In this document: positions 11,784 to 41,576 of the stretch, in pieces
Layout: each line of letters begins with the position of its first letter
How positions within the stretch are numbered: the first letter of the stretch is position 1
NCBI GenBank assembly: GCA_017412715.1
Contig: JAFPWU010000026.1
Location: 1-49,521 of the forward strand
Reading direction: 5' to 3'
DNA length: 49,521 nt
DNA from: Clostridia bacterium
GTDB lineage: Bacteria > Bacillota > Clostridia > Christensenellales > Aristaeellaceae
Notes under the pieces: generated by a model
Database searches by the model: none
What the model saw: the letters and a program-made list of their open reading frames with translations, nothing else
What the model was told of the DNA's origin: nothing
Position numbers and translations under genes: made by a program

Positions 11784-12005
11784 GCTCCGCTCTCTGCGGT
11801 ATTCCATTCCGGGGAACGCCTCTCCTGCCCAGGGCTGCCGCCCGTTTCTCACTGAAAACTGTCCACTGGACAGTTTTCCGGGCGTTCGAAACCCCCGCTC
11901 ACTTACGCAGCGGTTCTAAGCTTTGTCTGCGCCTTACGGCTTGCCAATCGCTAAGAACCGGCGAGAATCGAGGCCCCCGGGTATGGAACACCTCAGCGCT
12001 CCGCT
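11784..12005. repeat. dispersed structured element, copy 1 (222 bp, long form)
   Basis: Fills most of the 313-bp gap between malQ and the zinc-ribbon gene. It begins GCTCCGCTCTCTG and ends CAGCGCTCCGCT. The ends pair as an imperfect stem (with TTCCA near 11812 and TGGAA near 11983). Inside are a perfect 11-bp hairpin (GAAAACTGTCC at 11854-11864, GGACAGTTTTC at 11868-11878) and a second stem, CGGTTCT (11911-11917) with AGAACCG (11954-11960). Near-identical inner sequence recurs at 14311 and 32376; shorter forms are at 19791 and 41315. Confidence 0.92.
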
Positions 12006-14310: not shown

Positions 14311-14532
14311 GCCTCGCTCTCGAGATCGTTTCATTTCGGGGGACGCCTCTCCTGCCCAGGGCTGCCGCCCGTTTCTCACTGAAAACTGTCCACTGGACAG
14401 TTTTCCGGGCGTTCGAAACCCCCGCTCACTTACGCAGCGGTTCTAAGCTTTGTCTGCGCCTTGCGGCTTGCCAATCGCTAAGAACCGGCGAGAATCGAGG
14501 CCCCCGAGAACGAAACATCTCTGCGCTCGGCT
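14311..14532. repeat. dispersed structured element, copy 2 (222 bp, long form, diverged ends)
   Basis: Lies in the roughly 400-bp divergent gap between trmK and dgt. The interior is almost identical to copy 1. The terminal arms have drifted: left arm 14322-14342 and right arm 14501-14521. Compared with copy 4, five positions of the left arm have changed, and the paired bases of the right arm changed with them, so the stem remains. The rest of the gap holds the trmK promoter on one side and, on the dgt side, no promoter that I can define. Confidence 0.92.
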
Positions 14533-14633
14533 TACAGGCTTTGCTACAAAAACACTTTCTCTGCGCAGCAGGAAAAAGGGAGCCGGACGGAGTATTAAAA
14601 GAAGGTAAACCGAAGGCGGAAGGGGGGATGCGG

Positions 14634-19790: not shown

Positions 19791-19946
19791 GCTCCGCTCT
19801 CTGAGGTATTCCACACCGGGGGACGCCTCGCGGCTCCGTTCACTTACGCAACGGTTCTAAGCTCTGTCTGCGCCTTACGGCTTGCCAGTCGCTAAGAACC
19901 GGCGAGAATCAAGGCCCCCGGAAGTGGAACACCTCAGCGCTCCGCT
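19791..19946. repeat. dispersed structured element, copy 3 (156 bp, short form)
   Basis: In the 356-bp divergent gap between ispE and the DUF1934 gene. It has the terminal stem (CTGAGGT, TTCCAC and CCGGGGG on the left pairing with the right arm) and the inner CGGTTCT/AGAACCG stem. It lacks the approximately 65-bp middle module with the 11-bp hairpin. The gap also holds the ispE promoter on the left and the DUF1934 promoter on the right. Confidence 0.9.
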
Positions 19947-32329: not shown

Positions 32330-32375
32330 CGAAAATCATCTCCTTTATCGCAATTAATTGGGGTCTGTTTTTTCA

Positions 32376-32598
32376 GCTTCGCTCTCTGAGGTTATTCCAC
32401 TCCGGGGGACGCCTCTCCTGCCCGGGGCTTCCGCCCGTTTCTCACTGAAAACTGTCCACTGGACAGTTTTCCGGGCGTTCGAAACCCCCGCTCACTTACG
32501 CAGCGGTTCTAAGCTTTGTCTGCGCCTTGCGGCTTGCCAATCGCTAAGAACTGGCGAGAATCGAGGCCCCCGGAAGTGGAATACCTCAGCGCTCAGCT
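32376..32598. repeat. dispersed structured element, copy 4 (223 bp, long form)
   Basis: Fills the 304-bp gap between rmuC and galM. This copy has the best outer stem: left arm 32388-32408, right arm 32567-32587, about 20 pairs with two single-base bulges. The 11-bp perfect hairpin is at 32447-32457 and 32461-32471. It reads in the same direction as all other copies. No separate galM promoter is evident between it and the gene. Confidence 0.93.
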
Positions 32599-32633
32599 CT
32601 CAGGGATGGTGTTACATTGATTATATCCAAAAC

Positions 32634-41200: not shown

Positions 41201-41314
41201 AATGTACAACTCCCTTTCTTTTGAGGATTGAAGGAATTGTACCCCAGAAATGGTCAGATAAAAATGATCAGAAATGAATAATTTTATATAACCAGATTTT
41301 GTGCCTGTTCAGTC

Positions 41315-41524
41315 GCTCCGCTCTCTGAGGTTGTTCCACTCCGGGGGTAAGGAATCGCACGCGCACCGCGGGCGCAAGCGCCTCGCGCACCGCACGCGGC
41401 AGGCCTCTCGGCTCCGTTCACTTACGCAGCGGTACTAAGCTCTGCCTGCGCCTTCCGGCTTGTCAATCGCTAAGTACCGGCGAGAATCAAGGCCCCCGGA
41501 AGTGGAACACCTCAGCGCTCCGCT
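41315..41524. repeat. dispersed structured element, copy 5 (210 bp, variant middle)
   Basis: In the 376-bp gap between yggS and the ECF gene. It keeps the outer stem (CTGAGGTTGTTCCACTCC on the left). The inner stem has changed on both sides: CGGTACT (41430-41436) with AGTACCG (41473-41479), against CGGTTCT/AGAACCG elsewhere. The middle module with the 11-bp hairpin is absent; instead about 70 bases of very GC-rich, CGCGCACCGCG-like sequence are present. Confidence 0.9.
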
Positions 41525-41576
41525 TTCAGGACTGAATAGTTGCCAGGTTTTTGAAAACTGAAATGGAAACGATGAA

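Follow-up and report, generated by a model that had tools for sequence, protein, structure and literature searches.

Members of the IS66 family are characterized, in the available part of the literature, by a terminal repeat of 20-30 bp starting with GTAAGCG and by 8-bp repeats (PMC11946415). Prokaryotic MITEs are described, in the accessible portion of another account, as typically AT-rich and as giving stable stem-loop transcripts, and the same source portion describes Acinetobacter integrons flanked by MITEs, in which passenger genes are bounded by a MITE (PMC10969869). The element analysed here occurs in five copies within the window, which is the whole stretch of DNA under study (49,521 nucleotides of contig JAFPWU010000026.1, assembly GCA_017412715.1, from a Clostridia bacterium of the family Aristaeellaceae). 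In its best-preserved copies the ends start with GTAA and are flanked by an 8-bp target duplication, both as in the IS66 description available, and a congener IS encoding a PF03050 transposase carries the same 14-bp ends. However, the element contains no transposase gene, and its ends start with GTAAC instead of the longer GTAAGCG given for IS66 in the part of the source available. With a unit size of about 150-260 bp, multiple copies, target duplications, stable predicted stem-loops and, in part of the copies, recognizable terminal inverted repeats, it resembles prokaryotic MITEs, whereas its cores are modular, contain 51-70% G+C and covary genus-wide, unlike the typically AT-rich MITEs of the portion consulted (PMC10969869). 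A core that is modular, mostly rich in G+C and covarying throughout the genus is unusual for a MITE. No IS66-derived MITE was found among the literature matches listed, and a literature query combining covariation with miniature inverted-repeat returned no match. The element is probably a non-autonomous MITE, with IS66-type ends in its own species and nearest relatives, that is mobilized in trans and whose stem pairing is kept at the DNA level.

All five copies reported in the initial annotation (at 11784, 14311, 19791, 32376 and 41315) lie at these positions, and the pairing ends that it had described correspond to a terminal stem in the predicted fold of each copy (5/5). The spans given there were too short for copy 5, which has a 7/8 target duplication outside its full extent, and probably also for copy 4, whose likely ends, placed by eye, were missed by the fixed-motif end test described below (Table 1). 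Module B, of approximately 70 bp, is present in copies 1, 2 and 4 and missing from copy 3, while copy 5 carries a different insert, and modules B and C are scattered separately across the genus. In congeners, module B was seen alone at the centres of L016, L020, L022, L026 and L043, and its inner stem is replaced wholesale with pairing kept (e.g., AAAACTGT, AGAAAGAGC, AAAACGAT and AAAAAGCGC), the CCACTGG/CCAGTGG loop staying constant. In addition, L135 holds tandem core copies (1327-1461 and 1501-1635) that are 174 bp apart.

Table 1. Coordinates of the element copies, their parts and the related compound segments (window positions unless a locus is named).
Feature	Position	Strand	Basis or remark
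Copy 1	11784..12005	+	repeat comparison in window and own genome; empty-site matches
Copy 2 (stem lineage unlike copy 4, interior nearly the same)	14311..14538	+	arm and interior comparison
Copy 3 (shorter, module B absent)	19791..19946	+	repeat comparison, predicted fold
Copy 4 with its decayed IS66-type ends, probable limits	32361..32615 (approximate)	+	ends by eye; possible 8-bp duplication ATTAATTG/ATTGATTA, 6/8
Copy 4 terminal stem, left arm	32388..32408	+	arm comparison and predicted fold
Copy 4 module B (nested palindrome; dispersed alone in congeners)	32419..32488	+	query 44-113 of congener search
Copy 4 module C (inner hairpin; has other stems in congeners)	32498..32556	+	query 123-181 of congener search
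Copy 4 terminal stem, right arm	32567..32587	+	arm comparison and predicted fold
Copy 5 left target duplication, CAGATTTT	41293..41300		7/8 match
Copy 5, full extent with IS66-type ends	41301..41543	+	end-motif test
Copy 5 right target duplication, CAGGTTTT	41544..41551		7/8 match
Compound transposon	L103 221-6027; L104 1081-6825		two congeners, different sites

The element is commoner than the five copies initially annotated: in its own genome (1.77 Mb, 55% complete), 34 matching pieces correspond, when grouped by eye, to about 14 places that are nearly full and 5 that are partial. A sequence search found matches in 18 of 24 congener genomes; 16 genomes representing other families of the order gave none. 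A covariance model built from alignment A1 (below) matched 30 of 45 genus genomes and, in an order-wide search, 5 of 296 drawn genomes, all belonging to this one genus among the 125 genera covered. The lack of matches in other genera is provisional, at most 11 candidates having been scored per genome under strict filters. Several copies are located at contig ends (G048:C83; G057:C11, C30 and C31; G043:C90), as repeats that break assemblies would be, and copy numbers in draft genomes are therefore probably underestimates. The initial annotation had not recognized the family, and Rfam indeed returned nothing at gathering score across the window, with one weak match around copy 4 falling far below its gathering score; the ends of the best copies, however, match those of an IS66-family IS.

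These best-preserved copies extend past the limits first given to GTATCTGTTCAGTC ... GACTGAATAGTTAC ends, of the form GTAAC(T)NTTCAGTC, with 8-bp target duplications outside, and at L004 CAAAACAG flanks the element ends on both sides. When a fixed 14-bp motif with up to 5 substitutions was applied, two recognizable IS66-type ends were observed in 36 of 123 copies, including one of the five in the window (copy 5), and were not found by this test in the other 87. Among the 36, the flanks match at 6 or more of 8 bases in 16 copies, two of which (L163 and L184) represent one shared site, and perfectly in 6, compared with 1.5% of mispaired flanks reaching the same match. Searching freely for GTA..TAC ends accompanied by 8-bp repeats yielded many probable chance hits outside the species with IS66-type ends, so only the fixed-motif test was relied on. 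Other outer ends, of the GCAGCCC...GGGCTGC or CGCTCGCT type, occur in L122, L126, L128, L134, L140 and L223-L225, and no mobilizer was found for the many congeners with such ends.

Two insertion sites in the window were compared with their counterparts in congeners. The neighbours of copy 4 are rmuC and an aldose epimerase gene; comparison loci for its site came from an rmuC search, in which the nearest relatives were uncultured Clostridia MAGs, several of them from ruminants. No model match was present at this site in any of 20 congener loci, and in 8 of these the joined flanks align as a single piece over the junction. For copy 1, eight congeners were searched; in five the joined flanks match over the junction, and the alignment was inspected for four of these. 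The sites of both copies are thus empty in congeners.

Matches to an IS66-family transposase (PF03050) were obtained in 17 of 41 genus genomes, 16 of them above cut-off, and no PF03050 match was obtained in the 55% of the own genome that is represented. In two congeners, G046 and G054, the matching gene was observed inside an IS with the same ends as the element. The transposase of G046 is a single 490-aa frame, with GTAACTATTCAGTC and GTAGCTATTCAGTC as IS ends, and the match in G054 is split into two pieces. The copies in the window would have been moved by this IS66-family transposase, which may act in trans on the element and duplicate 8 bp of target. The earlier reading of a dispersed element with a covarying stem stands, with pairing extending genus-wide, but the annotation had itself named a match to a known IS or MITE end as grounds against its interpretation, and the ends of the best copies do match those of an IS.

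The covariation first noted among copies in the window is real and general in the genus. In A1, a 10-row MAFFT alignment of own-genome and congener sequences with a structure hand-written from those ten rows, both sides have changed in 19 of 41 pairs, and the covariation score is 0.317; shuffles gave 0.126 and slid partners 0.054-0.133. The model-wide score, from 107 aligned matches (104 distinct rows) in an alignment fitted to the model, is 0.332, where shuffles reach 0.115 (sd 0.004) and slid partners 0.055-0.096, and double changes occur at all 17 pairs of the terminal stem across the 104 distinct rows. A plain dispersed repeat with compensated changes arising by chance, for which nothing speaks beyond the kinship of the copies, is rejected by the scores of both alignments, which lie far above the shuffled and slid controls, and its probability is negligible. 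While the stems vary, all ten rows of A1 share the same loop motif, CTAAGCTCTG, and this constant loop amid changing stems suggests selection on a structure, although the G055/G057 consensus differs at the CTAAGCTCTG position. Two orthologous pairs compared between G055 and G057 show 13 single pair changes and no double change, so that recent change is one-sided in this small sample.

Within the window, the arms of copies 2 and 4 behave as originally described: left positions 4, 7, 10, 13 and 15 are altered on both sides with Watson-Crick pairing kept, and position 12 shows the uncompensated change from A-T to A-C. The terminal stem of copy 4 comprises 20 pairs (counted by eye from a position-by-position arm listing, with a 1-nt bulge allowed per arm), and copy 2 differs at 6 of them. 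The interiors of the two copies differ at 3 of 158 positions, compared with 16 of 41 in the arms (Fisher p 4.2e-10). Near-identical interiors inside divergent arms make the stems look older than the interior that they share, and interiors have probably been exchanged between older stems or homogenized among copies. The claim that the fold itself is maintained is borne out for pairing across the genus, but the contrast between copies 2 and 4 cannot be read simply as compensating point mutations accumulated within a single fold.

Selection on a fold in a single RNA strand should leave G-U in excess among one-sided changes, and this expectation separates the readings of the covariation. Scored against the usual pair of each of seven species groups with alignment folds, one-sided changes in the element comprise 29 G-U and 29 A-C, alongside 75 doubles and 46 other mismatches (80 of 123 copies, the other 43 being too long or outside the seven groups). 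RNase P of the same genus gave 21 G-U and 7 A-C, with 37 doubles and 7 others (26 of 29 loci, in 26 genomes, three loci cut by contig ends having been dropped), the two sets being compared as raw counts. An earlier count on single-sequence consensus folds had given 63 G-U and 64 A-C for the element; because this crude fold gave only 28 and 18 for RNase P, the count was repeated with alignment folds. The TPP riboswitch proved too conserved to serve as a strand control (2 and 2 unique events), and RNase P was used in its place. The observed covariation has no strand preference, so that an RNA fold does not follow from it alone. An element with textbook covariation and many double changes can thus be a mobile DNA repeat, and the one-sided G-U versus A-C count offers a simple check on such covariation readings.

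The reading in which selection acts on a structured RNA, alone or within an mRNA (e.g., close to the 3' ends of operons), and transposition merely spread it would account for the strong covariation in both alignments and for the loop motif that is fixed in ten rows amid changing stems. It also draws on orientation, since among copies between codirectional genes sense outnumbers antisense by 52 to 24 (binomial p 0.0018), and by 23 to 6 in species outside the main groups. Gene strands were assigned with a codon score that had 11 genes of the window as its training set and was checked on those alone (52/52 pieces). This sense-strand bias leaves room for an RNA or single-strand role in other congeners. 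However, the one-sided changes are strand-symmetric, unlike those of RNase P, and do not support an RNA fold; between codirectional genes the own genome has no sense and five antisense copies; and Rfam yielded, as noted above, only a sub-threshold match in the window, which together leave this reading unlikely. A related possibility is that the hairpin core is a selected nucleic-acid structure, either a regulatory element associated with operons or a substrate for recombination, which borrowed transposon ends to disperse within a single bacterial genus and whose stem is rebuilt per lineage while key loops stay fixed; this is a tentative and rather unlikely view.

Covariation could also arise without selection if template-switch (quasi-palindrome) repair kept the hairpin perfect, changing both sides in each event, a mechanism published, in the portion of the source available, for RNA hairpins (PMC8794818). 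Strand-symmetric one-sided changes and the many doubles agree with it, but one-step repair is not favoured by the small sample of two orthologous pairs with single changes exclusively, nor does it accord with a loop motif fixed in ten rows while stems change, and it is very improbable as the whole cause. The preferred reading of a non-autonomous MITE whose pairing is kept as DNA would instead have a core inside the transposon ends that consists of the terminal stem, the inner hairpin C and, in some copies, the nested palindrome B. Terminal stems would diverge among lineages with pairing kept, interiors would be exchanged or homogenized among copies, and template-switch repair perhaps contributes to stem pairing. 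Against this reading weigh the 87 copies in which two IS66-type ends were not recognized, the different outer ends of many congeners, the lack of a PF03050 match in the incomplete own genome, the split match in G054, the fixed loop motif and the overall sense-strand bias. Symmetric one-sided changes together with long-kept pairing point to maintenance that involves both strands, for example as an inverted repeat or cruciform, and the cause of the covariation would accordingly most likely lie at the level of DNA rather than of an RNA fold.

The two congeners with the IS also bear on the capacity of the element to act as a transposon end. In each, the IS has an 84-bp relative of the element about 4 kb away, and the two stand at opposite ends of a segment of 5,807 bp in one genome and 5,745 bp in the other. 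Between G046 and G054, the segments share 99.3% and 98.3% identity in two blocks, and the similarity stops at the outer ends. They occupy different sites and are flanked by perfect 8-bp duplications, one genome showing CCGGAAAT and the other CAAAGAAT. The segment is a compound transposon, one end of which is a MITE, and this implies that the MITE end can function as a transposon end. As in the Acinetobacter integrons described in the available part of that account, passenger genes here are MITE-bounded, but a MITE forms one end and an IS66 element the other, with an operon for thiamine uptake as cargo. This cargo comprises a TPP riboswitch, a thiamine-binding protein, a permease, an NMT1/THI5 protein, an ABC ATPase and a thiamin pyrophosphokinase. 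In two species, the same ends thus enclose, at different sites, a thiamine uptake operon linked to a riboswitch, providing a concrete case of vitamin-uptake genes carried by a MITE/IS pair.
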